Assembly: GCA_021771695.1 (NCBI GenBank)
Contig: JAETON010000022.1
Coordinates: 1-41,114, forward strand
Length of the DNA stretch: 41,114 nt
Origin: Lachnospiraceae bacterium
GTDB taxonomy: Bacteria > Bacillota > Clostridia > Lachnospirales > Lachnospiraceae
Direction: 5' to 3'
Below are positions 13,735 through 20,162 of the stretch, one piece after another (positions within the stretch are counted from its first letter, which is position 1; every line of letters begins with the position of its first letter). A program made the translations under genes and the position numbers. The notes beneath the pieces are model-generated. The model did not search any database. It had not been told where the DNA came from and saw only the letters and a list, made by a program, of their open reading frames with translations.

Positions 13735-13753
13735 AAAAATCCACAAAAATGCA
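13735..13753 (+). promoter_or_regulatory. upstream operator-like repeat pair
   Basis: AAAAATCCA (13735-13743) and AAAAATGCA (13745-13753) lie one helical turn apart, just upstream of the -35 box of the sugar-phosphate operon. The same word recurs twice downstream of the start. Binding by the neighbouring DeoR-type protein is inferred. Confidence 0.55.
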
Positions 13754-13762
13754 AAATACATA

Positions 13763-13791
13763 TTGACAAATAAGCGATATAATAATAAAAT
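13763..13791 (+). promoter_or_regulatory. promoter of the hexulose-phosphate/polyol operon
   Basis: TTGACA (13763-13768), a 17-bp spacer and TAAAAT (13786-13791). The expected start is near 13798, giving a leader of about 80 nt. Confidence 0.75.
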
Positions 13792-13807
13792 AACATCATA
13801 AAGCAAC

Positions 13808-13828
13808 AAAAATGCACATAAAAATGCA
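13808..13828 (+). promoter_or_regulatory. downstream operator-like repeat pair
   Basis: AAAAATGCA occurs at 13808-13816 and again at 13820-13828, 12 bp apart, inside the early transcribed region. Together with the pair at 13735-13753 it brackets the promoter, an arrangement suited to repression by looping. Confidence 0.55.
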
Positions 13829-13877
13829 ACATTCAGAACAGTAACACCACAAATACATAGCGAGGAGGCCGCAGAGC

Positions 13878-14441
13878 ATGGAAGCAAAAAAATTAAGGAT
13901 TATTACCGATGAATTATCAAAATTCTCAGGAATGGTACAGGAAGAAGAAGTACAGGCGCTGGCAGATGCAATTAAAGAAGCAAACAAGATTTTCTTAGCA
14001 GGCGCAGGACGATCAGGACTTGCTGCAAGAGCATTTACAAACCGCTTGCTGCATATGGGATTTGATGTACATTTTGTTGGAGAAATTTCTTGTCCGCCAA
14101 TCAAAGAAGGAGATTTGATTATCCTTGGTTCTGGTTCTGGAACAACACAGAGTTTGATTGTTATGGGAGAAAAAGCAAAAGGAGTTGGAGCCAAAATTGC
14201 AACAGTTACAATGTTCCCAACACATACCATTGGACAGATGGCAGATGTTATTGTCACAGTTCCGGGTTCCACACCAAAGAAAGCAGAAGGAGAAAAGAAT
14301 CTGGCAGAATCTAATCAGCCAATGGGAAATCTGTTTGAACAGATGAGCTGGCTGACATATGACAGCATTATTATGGTTTTGATGGATGATTTAAATCAGA
14401 CCAGTGAAGAAATGGTGGCACGTCATACCAATTTAGAGTAA
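13878..14441 (+). CDS. SIS-domain protein, 6-phospho-3-hexuloisomerase-like (copy 1)
   Basis: 187 aa, start behind GAGGAGG. A single SIS domain with GAGRSGLAARAF (about residues 42-53) and SGSGTTQSL (about 84-92) matches the small PHI/HxlB family, which interconverts 3-hexulose-6-phosphate and fructose-6-phosphate. The C-terminal part FEQMSWLTYDSIIM is also typical. It opens the DeoR-linked operon and is followed 12 bp later by dhaK. A clearly related second copy lies at 17344. The enzyme class is fairly sure; the true sugar phosphate is not, since a C5 or other ketose phosphate is possible. Confidence 0.82.
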   Translation: MEAKKLRIITDELSKFSGMVQEEEVQALADAIKEANKIFLAGAGRSGLAARAFTNRLLHMGFDVHFVGEISCPPIKEGDLIILGSGSGTTQSLIVMGEKAKGVGAKIATVTMFPTHTIGQMADVIVTVPGSTPKKAEGEKNLAESNQPMGNLFEQMSWLTYDSIIMVLMDDLNQTSEEMVARHTNLE

Positions 14442-14453
14442 AAGGAGAAAAAA

Positions 14454-15452
14454 ATGCAGAGATTTGTGAATGATCCGGATTATATTGTAGAAGATATGGT
14501 CAAAGGATTTGTAAAAGCTCATGATGATTTGATTGTACGCTCAGAGAACAATGACCGTGTAGTAAAATACAAAAATGCTCCGGTAGAAGGGAAAGTTGGA
14601 TTGGTAACCGGCGGAGGAAGCGGACATGAGCCGGCATTTCTCGGATATGTTGGAAAAAATATGATGGATGCAGTTGCCGTCGGTGAAGTATTTTCATCAC
14701 CATCTGCACAGGCATTTTATGATGCATTCATGGAAGTTGACGCAGGAAAAGGTGTTGCATGTTTGTTTGGAAATTATGCCGGAGACAACATGAATGTAAA
14801 AATGGCAGTCCGTAAAGCAAAAAAACAGGGAGTTACCGTAAAATATGTTGTTGCAACGGATGATGTGGCATCTTCACCAAAAAAAACAAAAGAAAAACGC
14901 CATGGAATTGCCGGCGGAGTCTTTATGTGGAAAATCGGTGGAGCCAAAGCAGCATTGGGCGGAACACTGGATGAAGTCATTGAGACTGCACAGAAGGTTG
15001 TAGATAACACAAGAAGTATTTGCGTGGGATTGGAACCATGTGCAATTCCTGCGGTTGGACATCCAAATTTCCAAATCGCTGACGGTGATATGGAAGTCGG
15101 TATCGGGCATCACGGAGAACCGGGAATCAATGTGCAGAAATTAAAACCTGCCAAAGATATTGCAAGAAATATGGCAAAAGCAGTCATTGATGATTTGGAG
15201 CCGGACAGCGGTGATGAAGTAGCAGTATTACTTTCTGGATTAGGGGCAACACCGATTATGGAACTGTATGTTTTATACGATGATATTGAAGCGTATTTAA
15301 AAGAGCAGGGATTGTCTATTTACCGGGTATTTGTAGGCGACTATGTTACTTCTTTAGATATGAACGGGGCAGCGTTGACCGTGATGAAATTGGATGATGA
15401 GCTGAAAGAATTATTAGATTATGAAGCAAAATCACCAGGAATAGAAATATAA
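14454..15452 (+). CDS. dhaK: dihydroxyacetone kinase subunit DhaK-like
   Basis: 332 aa, full length for DhaK. The family marks are present: GGGSGHEPAFLGYVG (residues 53-67), GNYAGDNMN, and GIGHHGEPG with His220 at the place of the histidine that binds the substrate carbonyl covalently. DhaK only binds the ketose; phosphoryl transfer needs DhaL (ATP or PTS-linked DhaM). Neither dhaL nor dhaM follows, so the partner is elsewhere or the protein has another job, such as binding a different short ketose (erythrulose-type). It lies between the isomerase and mtlD in one operon. Confidence 0.88.
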   Translation: MQRFVNDPDYIVEDMVKGFVKAHDDLIVRSENNDRVVKYKNAPVEGKVGLVTGGGSGHEPAFLGYVGKNMMDAVAVGEVFSSPSAQAFYDAFMEVDAGKGVACLFGNYAGDNMNVKMAVRKAKKQGVTVKYVVATDDVASSPKKTKEKRHGIAGGVFMWKIGGAKAALGGTLDEVIETAQKVVDNTRSICVGLEPCAIPAVGHPNFQIADGDMEVGIGHHGEPGINVQKLKPAKDIARNMAKAVIDDLEPDSGDEVAVLLSGLGATPIMELYVLYDDIEAYLKEQGLSIYRVFVGDYVTSLDMNGAALTVMKLDDELKELLDYEAKSPGIEI

Positions 15453-15481
15453 GCAAAAATTAGTTTTATGGAGGAAATAAA

Positions 15482-16639
15482 ATGAAAGCAGTACATTTTG
15501 GTGCGGGGAAAATCGGAAGAGGATTTATTGCAGACCTTCTTTGCGACACGGGGTATGAAATTATTTTCGTTGATGTCAATGAAAAATTAAATGAAGAACT
15601 GAATAAATATCACAATTACTATTTGTATGTGATTGAAGAAGATTATAAGAGAAAAGAAATCGACAAGGTTTCTGCATTATCTCCAATTACACAGCCGGAC
15701 GAAGTCGTACAGGCAATTGTAGATGCAGATTTAGTAACTACAGCAGTTTTAGCAGACAACTTTCCGAAAATCGCAGGAAATCTTGCAAAAGGATTAAAAG
15801 CAAGATTAGATGCAGGAAAAGAAAGAATGAATGTCATTCCATGTGAAAATGCATTATTCTGCGGAGATATGCTGAAGAAAGAATTAGTAAGCACTGGATT
15901 GATTACAGAAGAAGAATTAGATCAGATCGCAGCAGTACCAAACACAGCAGTAGACCGTATGGTATTCGGGACTGACCGTGATGGCAGAGACGGAATTGAA
16001 ATAGGAAAGGATCACGAACTGGCAGTAGAAGTAAATAAACTGACAGATCCGGAGAACCCGCCAATCAAAGGTGCAGAATATACAGACAATCTTCAGAAAT
16101 TCTTAGAGAGAAAACTTTATACAATTAACTGTGGACATGCATGGTCTGGATATATGGCTCATTTAATGGGATATGAAATTATTCAGGATTATTTTGCATC
16201 TGAAGAAAATGTACAGATGACAAAAGACGTTATGTTTGAAGTTGCAGCATTATTAGAGAAGAAACACGGATTTACACACCAGGAAATGGCAGATTATATT
16301 GAATTTGCAGTAAATAGATTCTTGACACCTGGAATTATAGATACCGTATCACGTATTTCCAGAGCACCAATCCGTAAATTAGGACCAAGCGACCGCTTAG
16401 TAGGACCTGCTTCCCAGTGTGAAGAAGCCGGACTTGCAAATGCAATGTTATTGAAAGGAATTGCAGCAGCATTTTTATTTGATGTAAAAGATGATGAGCA
16501 GTCTGTAGAATTACTTGCATATGTGGAGGAAAATGGAATTGAAAAAGCTGTACCTTATTATACAGGAATTGAGGCAGGAAGCAGAATGTTTGAAGAAATT
16601 GTAAAAAATTATAATGAATTAAAAGCACAGTATAAATAG
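15482..16639 (+). CDS. mtlD: mannitol-1-phosphate 5-dehydrogenase
   Basis: 385 aa, the length of MtlD. The NAD-binding loop HFGAGKIGRGF (residues 5-15) and the catalytic segment ERKLYTINCGHA (Lys211, His219) agree with the polyol-phosphate dehydrogenases. It oxidises mannitol-1-phosphate to fructose-6-phosphate with NAD. No PTS mannitol permease (mtlA/mtlF) is nearby, so its substrate either comes from a transporter encoded elsewhere or is another hexitol phosphate. Fructose-6-phosphate is also the substrate of the flanking isomerases, which ties the gene to its operon. Confidence 0.9.
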   Translation: MKAVHFGAGKIGRGFIADLLCDTGYEIIFVDVNEKLNEELNKYHNYYLYVIEEDYKRKEIDKVSALSPITQPDEVVQAIVDADLVTTAVLADNFPKIAGNLAKGLKARLDAGKERMNVIPCENALFCGDMLKKELVSTGLITEEELDQIAAVPNTAVDRMVFGTDRDGRDGIEIGKDHELAVEVNKLTDPENPPIKGAEYTDNLQKFLERKLYTINCGHAWSGYMAHLMGYEIIQDYFASEENVQMTKDVMFEVAALLEKKHGFTHQEMADYIEFAVNRFLTPGIIDTVSRISRAPIRKLGPSDRLVGPASQCEEAGLANAMLLKGIAAAFLFDVKDDEQSVELLAYVEENGIEKAVPYYTGIEAGSRMFEEIVKNYNELKAQYK

Positions 16640-16695
16640 AAATAAGAAATATAAAACAACCATGTATATTTTATAAAATTTTAGGAGGAAGAATC

Positions 16696-17322
16696 ATGAA
16701 ATTACAATTGGCTTTGGATGAAATGAAAATGGATGCAGCAATGGAATTAATGGAGAAAGTAAAAGATTATGTAGATATTATCGAGATTGGAACTCCATTT
16801 TGTCTGGATGCTGGAAATAGTGCAGTAGAAGCATTTAAGAAGGCATATCCTGATAAAGAAGTTTTGGCAGACTGCAAGATTATGGATGGCGGATATCTGG
16901 AAACAGAAAATGCTATTAAAGCTGGAGCTGATTATGTAACAGTATGTGCAACTGCTGATTTATTAACAGTAAAAGGTGCTTTTAAAGCAACACAGGATTA
17001 TGGAAAACAATTAGTCGTTGATATGATTACAATTGAAGACATTCCTGCAAAAGTAGCAGAATTAGAAGAAGTTGGAGTTGATGTACTGGCTGTACATACA
17101 GGAGCAGATGCACAAGCAGTTGGCAGAGAACCAATTCAGGATTTAGAAGTTATGGTTGGATGTGCTAAAAAATCTAAGATTGCAGTAGCTGGAGGAATCA
17201 ACAGCAAGACAATCGGTAAATATGCAGCATTAAAACCAGACATTGTAATTGTAGGTTCTGCAATCGGACGTGCAGAAGATCCAGTTGCAGAAGCAAAAGC
17301 AATCAAAGAGGCTATGTTATAA
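16696..17322 (+). CDS. 3-hexulose-6-phosphate synthase-like (OMP decarboxylase superfamily)
   Basis: 208 aa, start behind AGGAGG. The motif D-x-K-x-x-D appears as ADCKIMDGG (Asp59, Lys61, Asp64); VDIIEIGTPF, VHTGAD and VAGGI complete the HPS/KGPDC barrel. HPS joins formaldehyde to ribulose-5-phosphate or, in reverse, cleaves hexulose-6-phosphate. Association with two PHI-like genes favours HPS over 3-keto-L-gulonate-6-phosphate decarboxylase, but both share this motif and the choice is not certain. Confidence 0.82.
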   Translation: MKLQLALDEMKMDAAMELMEKVKDYVDIIEIGTPFCLDAGNSAVEAFKKAYPDKEVLADCKIMDGGYLETENAIKAGADYVTVCATADLLTVKGAFKATQDYGKQLVVDMITIEDIPAKVAELEEVGVDVLAVHTGADAQAVGREPIQDLEVMVGCAKKSKIAVAGGINSKTIGKYAALKPDIVIVGSAIGRAEDPVAEAKAIKEAML

Positions 17323-17343
17323 GAGACGGGAGGAAGTTAAATC

Positions 17344-17901
17344 ATGACAGAATGTAAAAATATTTTTGCAATTCTTGATGAATTAAAAGAAAATGCAGCA
17401 CAGATAAATGATGATGATTTAAAAGCAGTGGAAAAACTGATTACAGAAGCAAATAGAATTTTTATCGGCGGAGCAGGACGTTCCGGATTTGCTGCAAGAG
17501 GATTTTCCAATCGTTTGATGCATCTTGGATATACCGTGTATTTTGTTGGAGAGCCGACAACTCCATCGATTCAGGAAGGAGACTTATTGATTGTAGGTTC
17601 TGGTTCAGGAAATACAGCAAGCCTTGTATCAAACTCTAAAAAAGCAAAAGAACAGGGAGCTAAAGTTGCAACACTTACCATGTTCCCGGAAAATACCATT
17701 GGTTCTATGTCAGATGCTGCAATTAAGATTCCAGGTGAAACTGAAAAGGTAAAAGGAAAAGGAAAAGCATCCGTACAGGCTTCTGGTTCATCTTTTGAAG
17801 AATTATGCTGGATTACATATGATGCAATGGTTATGGATTTAATGAAATTAACCAATCAGACAAATGAGGATTTGTTTAAACGCCACGCAAATATGGAATA
17901 G
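17344..17901 (+). CDS. SIS-domain protein, 6-phospho-3-hexuloisomerase-like (copy 2)
   Basis: 185 aa. It shares with copy 1 the GAGRSGFAARGF loop, SGSGNTASL, and the TMFP and PG-T segments, with many differences between them, so it is an old duplicate rather than a recent one. It directly follows the HPS-like gene (21 bp), the pairing seen in known hps-phi operons, and is therefore the better candidate for the true isomerase partner. The next gene starts 19 bp after it. Confidence 0.84.
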   Translation: MTECKNIFAILDELKENAAQINDDDLKAVEKLITEANRIFIGGAGRSGFAARGFSNRLMHLGYTVYFVGEPTTPSIQEGDLLIVGSGSGNTASLVSNSKKAKEQGAKVATLTMFPENTIGSMSDAAIKIPGETEKVKGKGKASVQASGSSFEELCWITYDAMVMDLMKLTNQTNEDLFKRHANME

Positions 17902-17920
17902 CACAACATAGGGGGAAGAA

Positions 17921-19129
17921 ATGAACAATTTTACATTTCTTAGTCCGACAAGATTAATTGTTGGAAAAGATGCAGAAAAAGAAACTGGGAAATGGATTAA
18001 AGAATTTGGCGGAACGACAGTTTTGGTTCATCATGACAGCGGTTTTGTAAAGCAGAATGGATTCGTAGATAAAGTAATTGATATGCTTTGTGCAGATGGA
18101 CTAAAAGTAGTAGAGCTTGGCGGAGTTGTCCCGAATCCACATTTGGATTTGGTATATGAAGGAATTGAGCTTTGTAAAAAGGAAAAGGTAGACTTCCTTT
18201 TGGCAATTGGCGGCGGGAGTGTCATTGACTCTACAAAGGCAATTGCAATGGGACTTCCTTATGAAGGAGATGTATGGGATTTCTTTATTGAAGAAGATGG
18301 AATTCCACATGATGTGCCAACAAAAAGTACCCCTCTTGGTGTTATTTTGACGATTGCTGCCACAGGAAGCGAAGCTTCTAACAGCTGTGTTATTACAAAA
18401 GCGGATGAAAATTTGAAACGTTTTTGCGATAATGATATTAACCGTGCGGTATTTGCTATTGAAAATCCAGAATTAACAATGACACTGCCTCCTTTCCAAA
18501 CTGCTTGTGGAATTATCGATATTATGTCACATTCTTTTGAAAGATATTTCACACCGGAAAAAGAAAATGACATTTTAACAGATTATCTTTGTGAAGCAAT
18601 TTTCCATACTTGTATGGAATGTGGAAGAATTTTGTCAGATGATCCTGAAAATTACGATGCAAGAGCAAATATTATGGTTGCATCAACATTATCTCATAAC
18701 GGATTAACTGGAATGGGAAGAACTGGTGACTGGGCATCTCATTTTATTGAACATGAATTGTCTGGGGAATATCAAAGCGTAACACATGGTGCAGGATTGG
18801 CGGTTATTACTCCGGCATGGATGAAATATGTGTACAAAGATAATATGAAACTTTTCCTGAAATGGGCAACAAGAGTTATGGGAGCTGCGATGGATTATGA
18901 AAATCCGGAACGTACCGTATTAGAAGCCATTGACCGTTTGGAATTATTCTTCCAAAGTTTAGGGGTTCCTACAAAATTAAGCGAAGTTCCAGGAGTAGAA
19001 AATTTGGATGAAGCTGTTATGGAGAAAATGGCGAAACGTGTCCGTGTTGTTCATGAGGACGGAAGCATTGGATGGGTGAAAAAATTATATACAAAAGATA
19101 TTGTTGAGATTTTCAAACTTGCGATGTAG
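17921..19129 (+). CDS. iron-containing alcohol dehydrogenase (BdhA/YqhD type)
   Basis: 402 aa. The NAD(P) loop is AIGGGSVIDS (residues 95-104). The metal ligands are visible as Asp200 and His204 in GIIDIMSHSFE, His274 in GDWASHFIEHEL and His289 in THGAG. It reduces aldehydes or ketones to alcohols, or the reverse; closest in character are butanol dehydrogenases and YqhD. As the last gene of the operon it could dispose of an aldehyde made by the pathway (formaldehyde if the HPS-like enzyme runs in the cleavage direction). That role is inference. Confidence 0.88.
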   Translation: MNNFTFLSPTRLIVGKDAEKETGKWIKEFGGTTVLVHHDSGFVKQNGFVDKVIDMLCADGLKVVELGGVVPNPHLDLVYEGIELCKKEKVDFLLAIGGGSVIDSTKAIAMGLPYEGDVWDFFIEEDGIPHDVPTKSTPLGVILTIAATGSEASNSCVITKADENLKRFCDNDINRAVFAIENPELTMTLPPFQTACGIIDIMSHSFERYFTPEKENDILTDYLCEAIFHTCMECGRILSDDPENYDARANIMVASTLSHNGLTGMGRTGDWASHFIEHELSGEYQSVTHGAGLAVITPAWMKYVYKDNMKLFLKWATRVMGAAMDYENPERTVLEAIDRLELFFQSLGVPTKLSEVPGVENLDEAVMEKMAKRVRVVHEDGSIGWVKKLYTKDIVEIFKLAM

Positions 19130-19153
19130 TATATGCAAAATAAAATTGAATTT

Positions 19154-19191
19154 AAAAAGGTGTACTGTATGAGAAGGCAGTACACCCTTTT
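19154..19191 (+). terminator. terminator of the sugar-phosphate operon
   Basis: GGTGTACTG (19159-19167) pairs with CAGTACACC (19178-19186), with A-rich 5' flank and CTTTT after the stem. The T-run is short, so some read-through into the aldo/keto reductase gene is possible. Confidence 0.7.
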
Positions 19192-19214: not shown

Positions 19215-20162
19215 ATGATTCCTGTAAAAAAATTAAGTAATGGTGTAGAAATGCCTGTTTTAGGATTTGGGACATGGAAATTGAAAGATGAAAAGTGTAC
19301 AGAGATGGTAAAATATGCTTTGGATATAGGGTATCCGGCGATTGATACAGCACAGGTATATTTAAATGAAGAAGCAGTTGGAGAGGGGATTCGGCAATCC
19401 AGCAGGAAACGAGAAGATGTATTTTTTACATCCAAAATAAGAAACCGTTTTCAAGGATACGATCATACTTTACAGGCAGTAGAGGCAACATTAACAAGAA
19501 CGGGATTGGATTATATAGATTTATTTTTGATTCATTGGCCGGGAGAGAACATGTATGTACCCACTTGGAAAGCATTGGTGCGTATGTGTGAAGAAGGAAT
19601 GATTCGCTCCATTGGAGTCAGCAATTTCTATCCGGAACATATGGAAACCTGTGCACAAGAAACGGGAGTTATGCCAATGGTGAATCAGATTGAAATGCAT
19701 CCATATCTTATGCAGTATGAAGTGGTGGATTACTGCCGTCAGAATGGGGTTTTCCTTGTTTCGTGGAGTCCGTTGTCTGCAGGCGGTCAGACGAGACAGG
19801 ATCCAAAAACCAGTGCACTGGGAAATACAGGAAAGATACCGAGCGGAAATGTCATGGAAGATCCGGTTATTTGTGAGATTGCAAAACATCATGGGAAGAC
19901 ACCTGCCCAGACGGTGCTGCGGTGGCATGTACAGAATGGTTTTGGTGTTGTTCCAAAATCTTCAAATCCAGACCGTATCCGTCAGAATATGGAGTTATTT
20001 GATTTTGAATTAACGTTGGATGAAATGGATCAGATTCGGGAATTAACAAAAAAGCAGATTCGAATTGGAGATGATGGAAGAACTTATCGTTTTCTTTTGC
20101 TAGATGAATTGATTGCAGCAGGAAAAGAACCAAAAAGGGATCGCTTTGGAAATTATTTGTAA
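19215..20162 (+). CDS. aldo/keto reductase
   Basis: 315 aa, start 6 bp after AAAGGAGG. The catalytic tetrad is complete: Asp44 and Tyr49 (AIDTAQVYLNE), Lys74 (FFTSKI) and His107 (LFLIHWPG). IGVSNF and VVPKSSNPDRI (cofactor phosphate-binding region) are also present, which fits an NADPH-dependent member of the AKR5-like (2,5-diketo-gluconate reductase type) group. It follows the sugar-phosphate operon after a terminator and may share function with it. The physiological substrate cannot be told from sequence. Confidence 0.9.
   Translation: MIPVKKLSNGVEMPVLGFGTWKLKDEKCTEMVKYALDIGYPAIDTAQVYLNEEAVGEGIRQSSRKREDVFFTSKIRNRFQGYDHTLQAVEATLTRTGLDYIDLFLIHWPGENMYVPTWKALVRMCEEGMIRSIGVSNFYPEHMETCAQETGVMPMVNQIEMHPYLMQYEVVDYCRQNGVFLVSWSPLSAGGQTRQDPKTSALGNTGKIPSGNVMEDPVICEIAKHHGKTPAQTVLRWHVQNGFGVVPKSSNPDRIRQNMELFDFELTLDEMDQIRELTKKQIRIGDDGRTYRFLLLDELIAAGKEPKRDRFGNYL

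Follow-up and report, generated by a model that had tools for sequence, protein, structure and literature searches.

A DeoR-linked operon of Anaerostipes that joins hexulose-phosphate enzymes to a divergent mannitol-1-phosphate dehydrogenase homologue and may lead from hexitol phosphate to pentose phosphate

A 41,114-nucleotide stretch of DNA from a Lachnospiraceae bacterium (contig JAETON010000022.1 of assembly GCA_021771695.1; hereafter the window) carries an operon that encodes two 6-phospho-3-hexuloisomerase-type proteins (PHI1 and PHI2) and a 3-hexulose-6-phosphate synthase (HPS) together with a DhaK-type subunit, a divergent homologue of mannitol-1-phosphate 5-dehydrogenase (MtlD2) and an iron-containing alcohol dehydrogenase (Adh). 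Divergent from a gene for a DeoR-family regulator, six plus-strand open reading frames (ORFs) in the order PHI1-DhaK-MtlD2-HPS-PHI2-Adh span positions 13878–19129, with gaps of 12, 29, 56, 21 and 19 bp. A preliminary description of this DNA had reported such a tight six-gene unit, and the ORF calls, the gaps of 12–56 bp and the family scans bore it out. The operon is thus confirmed and, because the module is kept in relatives, is more than a product of chance. We tentatively propose that it encodes a DeoR-controlled shunt that would turn hexitol phosphate into pentose phosphate and dispose of an aldehyde, a reading that we regard as possible.

Gene identities and conserved linkage

The HPS-like protein scored 253.7 bits against the TIGR03128 model (cut-off 200) and fell far under the cut-offs for keto-gulonate-phosphate decarboxylases. 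PHI1 (217.3 bits) and PHI2 (224.5 bits), which share 50% identity, both exceeded the TIGR03127 cut-off of 160, and the best solved match of PHI2 was YckF, which we take to be the PHI of Bacillus subtilis. A residue table in PMC5980557 gives E112, R139 and T169 for keto-gulonate-phosphate decarboxylase and D109, a non-arginine residue and A164/165 for HPS. In the window protein, D109, A137 and A165 replace the decarboxylase residues, and the combination of Asp, non-Arg and Ala was found in 16 of 16 aligned HPS proteins (13 from Anaerostipes and those of genomes G670, G093 and G106), unlike the two ascorbate-type controls, both of which had Gln, Arg and Thr. Active-site residues and scores together ruled out a keto-gulonate-phosphate decarboxylase; judged by its sequence the protein is an HPS, as the preliminary description had called it. 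HPS was rare: at E ≤1e-20 it occurred in 14 of 392 genomes from the order, and at E ≤1e-25 in 20 of 398 from the phylum, the window genome counted in each.

MtlD2 resembles mannitol-1-phosphate 5-dehydrogenase models (best score 315.5 against a cut-off of 356) and missed all nine PRK02318 models; a canonical MtlD of the same genome passed four of nine MtlD models (best 515.6 against 368). A canonical mtl operon lies elsewhere in this genome, and its phosphotransferase system (PTS) scored above the IICBA model (728 against 589) and 0.1 bit under the IIC model (468.3 against 468.4). Among 80 genomes searched, copies of MtlD2 at ≥70% identity numbered 12, in 10 of 11 Anaerostipes genomes (G007 alone had none) and 0 of 69 others, and in the window genome and six further Anaerostipes genomes MtlD2 co-occurs with a canonical MtlD. 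When 32 MtlD-type proteins were placed in a tree, the protein of G670, on a long branch of the kind about which the tree program warns, grouped with all 12 genus copies in one clade (support 99/99), and 10 canonical MtlDs formed a separate clade (98/98). Twelve substituted columns and one deleted column were fixed between the 13 MtlD2 rows and the 10 canonical MtlDs. By clade and columns, MtlD2 is assigned to a dedicated HPS-linked subfamily. We take Lys-x4-Asn-x2-His, with the residue roles ascribed to it, to be the polyol-dehydrogenase pattern; all 13 MtlD2 rows have it (KLYTINCGH at 211 in the window protein, aligned with 3h2z), yet so do all 32 MtlD-family rows, and it is therefore no guide to substrate. 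A plasmid search with the G670 MtlD gave 26 records, all below 60% identity (20 among the matches listed). A second, very divergent MtlD-family gene, 25–27% identical to MtlD2, follows directly after PHI at L046:6372-7526 (G009) and L057:5721-6875 (G008).

The window HPS is 92, 90 and 89% identical to those at loci of Candidatus A. excrementavium, Candidatus A. avistercoris and A. butyraticus, respectively, and by this sequence relationship the window genome is placed in Anaerostipes. Outside it, HPS neighborhoods were fetched for 12 of 14 places in the order sample (all but G201 and G424), for 22 of the 26 from the phylum (all but G801, G646, G678:C5 and G670:C1:266850) and, in G670's own family, for 11 of 22; neighbors were labeled by selected family scans and by comparison with reference proteins chosen by hand, rather than counted systematically. 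All 13 HPS loci seen in Anaerostipes had PHI and 12 had MtlD2, which stood directly before HPS in 11 of its 12 genus copies and ∼6 kb away in the twelfth (G005). A DeoR gene, 75–90% identical to that of the window, precedes the module divergently in G001, G002, G004, G005, G006 and G010. In G003, G008 and G009 an mtlA-type IICB, a PRD regulator, EIIA, MtlD2, HPS and PHI follow one another on one strand, an order found again in G670, which belongs to another Bacillota family. In G002 and G006, PTS genes lie across the divergent DeoR gene from the module, and in G005 MtlD2 is followed by an opposite-direction GntR gene and then by sorbitol-6-phosphate dehydrogenase, a sorbose-type PTS, DhaL, DhaK, HPS and PHI. 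The absence of a transporter noted in the preliminary description therefore describes the window arrangement and not its relatives, where the module sits within or beside PTS genes. Linkage of an MtlD-type gene to HPS/PHI, for which conservation of gene order had been proposed as a check, is kept in the 12 genus copies of the 99/99 clade and, beyond the genus, in G670, the one clade member found there.

A possible shunt and its alternatives

In the proposed shunt, a mannitol PTS encoded elsewhere would supply hexitol phosphate, either mannitol-1-phosphate or a closely related compound, and MtlD2 would oxidize it to fructose-6-phosphate (F6P). PHI would convert F6P to 3-hexulose-6-phosphate, which HPS would cleave to ribulose-5-phosphate (Ru5P) and formaldehyde, and Adh would reduce the formaldehyde to methanol, consuming the NADH from MtlD2; in relatives without Adh, an aldo-keto reductase could perhaps take over this reduction. 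Since one NADH would be made by MtlD2 and one used in aldehyde reduction, conversion of hexitol phosphate to Ru5P and methanol would be redox-neutral and pulled forward. DhaK, with DhaL encoded elsewhere, might phosphorylate dihydroxyacetone made by transketolase or an FSA-type aldolase; of all parts of the model, this task is the least secure.

DhaK matched Dak1 with 382 bits and lay under the DhaK equivalog cut-off (358 against 406), and solved DhaK chains have matching residues at the His, Asp and His that we take to form its active site. It had been called an orphan, which holds for the operon, where DhaL is lacking, but not for the genome, where stand-alone DhaL genes at two other places are possible partners; in G005 and G003, DhaL lies inside the cluster. 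A DhaK paralogue, 93% identical, is found at L053:9546-17278 (G000:C87) with a galactitol-type PTS, a PRD regulator, a class II aldolase, a second DhaK and DhaL. At L052:8321-14301 (G000:C32), DhaL and DhaK are accompanied by a xylose-isomerase-like TIM barrel, by RpiB-family, HAD and cupin proteins and by a PTS IIC, a gene content resembling that of a locus for tetrulose or a rare sugar. A complete DhaKL-type pair occurs together with HPS and PHI at L070 (G003:C44).

The best solved match of Adh was an NADH-dependent butanol dehydrogenase. Assignment as a methanol dehydrogenase was rejected, the nearest solved chains being of the butanol dehydrogenase/YqhD type (best 303 bits), compared with a best of 84 for methanol dehydrogenases. 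The preliminary description had ended the operon at Adh. This was corrected, as an aldo-keto reductase gene (Table 1), possibly an extension of the operon, comes next and directly follows PHI2 in G001, G004 and G010; with the window, it is present at 4 of the 13 genus HPS loci. In the window, Adh and a hairpin sit between PHI2 and the aldo-keto reductase gene, as if Adh had been inserted there. Homologues of Adh after PHI2 in G008 and G009 are 92% identical to it, compared with 66–77% for the neighboring genes, and by this measure Adh looks laterally exchanged.

The route had been thought useful where the oxidative pentose route is absent. The proposed check of the genome showed that zwf and gnd are both missing, so that HPS and PHI are present and zwf and gnd absent, as in archaeal-type reverse ribulose monophosphate (RuMP) metabolism. 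None of 11 Anaerostipes genomes had zwf; of eight tested for gnd, G001 and G004 carry the gene and G005 gave a partial match that exceeded the cut-off. However, G007 has neither zwf nor HPS, six of nine HPS-carrying genomes tested from outside Anaerostipes have zwf (G670 included; one of the nine, G310, is 61% complete), and the window genome contains transketolase N-terminal half-genes and transaldolase (TAL)/FSA-family genes. These genes tend to speak against an incomplete non-oxidative branch, in a family search that did not extend to transketolase C-terminal halves, Rpe or Rpi. The missing oxidative enzymes therefore do not explain the operon, and their loss was rejected as its driver: across the genomes tested it proved neither sufficient nor necessary. 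The transketolase N-terminal halves are separate genes at three places (G000:C43:54212-55563, C104 and C68), and one adjoins a short transaldolase-family gene of 198 amino acids.

HPS/PHI loci beyond the genus also carried uptake systems. G106 has a sorbose-type PTS and a glucosamine-6-phosphate deaminase that scored over its cut-off, and G093 has a PTS and a glucose-6-phosphate isomerase (GPI)-family protein; at the locus of G843, with a sorbose-type PTS, HPS and PHI, no F6P-forming enzyme was identified. In Escherichia coli and Salmonella, a cassette comprises a ptsG-like IIBC, a GPI-family protein, hxlB and hxlA (L113:4748-10237 in E. coli 118UI; L108, L110 and L111 on Salmonella plasmids), with a divergent regulator annotated as SgrR-family in L110, L111 and L113. 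It was found in 132 of 5,426 E. coli genomes, always on the chromosome, and on all three Salmonella plasmids examined. The IIBC of a Salmonella plasmid scored above the glucose-type cut-off; the GPI protein, annotated as GPI-family in two records and as "cytoplasmic protein" in two, matched no NCBIfam model.

Several loci thus combine uptake and an F6P-forming enzyme with PHI and HPS, which fits the route first described and favors the cleavage direction. The gene calls, the HPS residues and the conserved MtlD-HPS/PHI linkage likewise support that part of the preliminary description; its appeal to a missing oxidative route did not stand. Adh recurs behind MtlD2-HPS-PHI in G008 and G009, also in keeping with the shunt. 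A number of points weigh on the other side. The HPS equilibrium favors condensation of Ru5P with formaldehyde, and F6P enters glycolysis without HPS or PHI. MtlD2 scores below the mannitol cut-offs despite the canonical mtl operon in the same genome, and the MtlD2-linked IICB of G009 and G002 passes none of them. DhaK is present at 5 of the 13 genus HPS loci (window, G004, G010, G005 and the second locus of G003) and Adh at 3 (window and the second loci of G008 and G009). That second locus of G003 (L070:6126-10044) has DeoR divergent from PHI1-DhaK-HPS-DhaL, without MtlD, and in the family of G670, MtlD stood beside HPS at 1 of the 11 loci inspected (22 found), with no MtlD seen at the ten others. 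The PTS IIC of G093 is named ascorbate-type. PfkB/ribokinase-like kinases accompany HPS/PHI at L058, L059, L066, L067 and L100, two of them with ribulose-phosphate epimerase, so that feeding from pentose fits too.

The equilibrium and the kinase–epimerase loci count instead for formaldehyde capture, an unlikely explanation in which HPS and PHI would run from Ru5P and formaldehyde to F6P, uptake and MtlD2 would supply or drain sugar phosphate, and Adh would reduce or supply formaldehyde. In its passages on B. subtilis, PMC8879981 describes HPS and PHI as formaldehyde-induced and as dissimilating formaldehyde. Here, however, DeoR or PRD proteins are the regulators next to the module (no search for an HxlR-type gene elsewhere was made), PTS uptake operons enclose it, and MtlD would divert the product into polyol phosphate. 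It is also not very likely, in our judgment, that the substrate is a rarer hexitol such as allitol or altritol. MtlD2 and a PTS would then yield a 2-ulose-6-phosphate other than F6P, which PHI would bring through a 2,3-enediol to 3-hexulose-6-phosphate for cleavage by HPS to Ru5P and formaldehyde. Such a substrate would account for the need for PHI and HPS at all and would suit both the separate MtlD2 clade with its fixed columns and the low scores of MtlD2 and IICB beside a canonical mtl operon. Retention of the Lys-x4-Asn-x2-His pattern in every MtlD2 row speaks the other way, yet its family-wide occurrence deprives it of force; the GPI-, deaminase- and sorbitol-6-phosphate-linked loci, moreover, all center on F6P. 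That the genes are merely a loose set of sugar-phosphate enzymes sharing a promoter, with no single pathway, we consider very improbable: DhaK and Adh come and go among loci and Adh looks exchanged, but the MtlD2-HPS linkage is kept across two families within one MtlD clade.

The HPS/PHI pair is perhaps best regarded as linking F6P and Ru5P in a way that can serve either direction. A broader and more doubtful proposal is that the loci form an unnamed class of cassettes in at least two phyla, in which uptake and an F6P-forming enzyme (MtlD2, GPI, glucosamine-6-phosphate deaminase or sorbitol-6-phosphate dehydrogenase) would feed PHI and HPS to split hexose into pentose phosphate and formaldehyde, the latter serving as a C1 unit or, as methanol, an electron sink; the Anaerostipes operon would be its polyol form. 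Should the shunt be real, HPS and PHI would have a role in bacterial sugar breakdown beyond methylotrophy and formaldehyde defense, and gut bacteria of the butyrate-forming genus Anaerostipes would release formaldehyde or methanol during growth on sugar alcohol.

Features of the locus

Table 1. Positions of the operon genes and associated elements in the window
Feature	Position	Strand	Basis
DeoR-family regulator, 256 aa	12886-13656	-	HTH_DeoR + DeoRC; divergent from operon
Promoter-like TTGACA-17-TAAAAT	13763-13791	+	consensus matches 11/12
Candidate DeoR operator CATAAAGCAACAAAA-NNN-CACATAA	13797-13821	+	part of columns invariant 7/7
PHI1, 6-phospho-3-hexuloisomerase-type SIS protein	13878-14441	+	TIGR03127 (217.3 bits)
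DhaK-type subunit (Dak1), without adjoining DhaL	14454-15452	+	Dak1 (382 bits)
MtlD2, divergent mannitol-1-phosphate 5-dehydrogenase homologue	15482-16639	+	family models; HPS-linked clade 99/99
HPS, 3-hexulose-6-phosphate synthase	16696-17322	+	TIGR03128 (253.7 bits); D109/A137/A165
PHI2, 6-phospho-3-hexuloisomerase-type SIS protein	17344-17901	+	TIGR03127 (224.5 bits); best solved match YckF
Adh, iron-containing alcohol dehydrogenase, butanol dehydrogenase/YqhD type	17921-19129	+	family scan; solved-chain matches
Terminator-like hairpin	19159-19186	+	10 pairs, T-rich tail
Aldo-keto reductase (DkgA-like), possible operon extension	19215-20162	+	258.7 bits, under cut-off 425

All seven intergenic regions aligned on the DeoR side keep TTGACA unchanged; they came from DeoR-fronted loci, and an eighth such locus, in G006, was left out. 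The operator-like motif occurred at a single site in the 2.85-Mb genome at ≤3 mismatches, with none for the reversed-pattern control. This single occurrence suggests a local regulator, and the site may be bound by DeoR. Extension of the DeoR regulon to the mtl operon was rejected, as the single occurrence gave no sign of it. Neither promoter-like sites (30, compared with 27.6 in shuffles, standard deviation (sd) 5.5) nor terminator-like hairpins (6, compared with 4.4, sd 2.3) were in clear excess in the scan. The operon is flanked on one side by a fatty-acid cluster, whose members we presume to be an AccA-like gene and a FabK-like enoyl reductase, and on the other by ribosomal protein genes; G001 and G004 have the same two neighbors.

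Comparison with known systems

The preliminary description did not recognize the gene set as a described pathway, and text searches of open-licence papers listed no description of it, nor any account of HPS/PHI in a mannitol-type operon, of HPS/PHI in Anaerostipes or of the PTS-GPI-hxlBA cassette. Two candidate precedents were set aside: the arabitol operon of B. methanolicus, as presented in the relevant part of PMC6685057, has another dehydrogenase and no HPS noted within it, and the pertinent sections of an Anaerobutyricum paper (PMC7702098) treat sorbitol, sucrose and lactate without mention of hexulose. The hxlAB genes of B. subtilis share the HPS and PHI families with the window, YckF being the closest solved chain to PHI2; the window differs in having DeoR rather than HxlR as adjacent regulator (HxlR elsewhere was not looked for) and in its polyol and, in relatives, PTS neighbors.

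In archaea, formaldehyde is a by-product of the route from F6P to Ru5P. PMC12651746 attributes the conversion of F6P to Ru5P to PHI and HPS where a genome lacks the oxidative branch. The window genome shares PHI and HPS and the lack of that branch with reverse RuMP, but it is bacterial and contains transketolase and transaldolase-family genes, and genes for a hexitol-phosphate dehydrogenase, DhaK, Adh and DeoR accompany its HPS/PHI pair. Mannitol PTS operons have the order mtlA-mtlR-mtlF-mtlD; G003, G008, G009 and G670 show the same families in the same order, with the difference that MtlD and IICB are divergent and under the cut-offs and that hps and phi are added behind. The E. coli/Salmonella ptsG-like-GPI-hxlB-hxlA cassette also unites uptake, a putative F6P-forming enzyme, PHI and HPS, the HPS proteins being 55–56% identical, and has a glucose-type PTS and GPI in place of the mannitol-type PTS and MtlD, together with an SgrR-family regulator.

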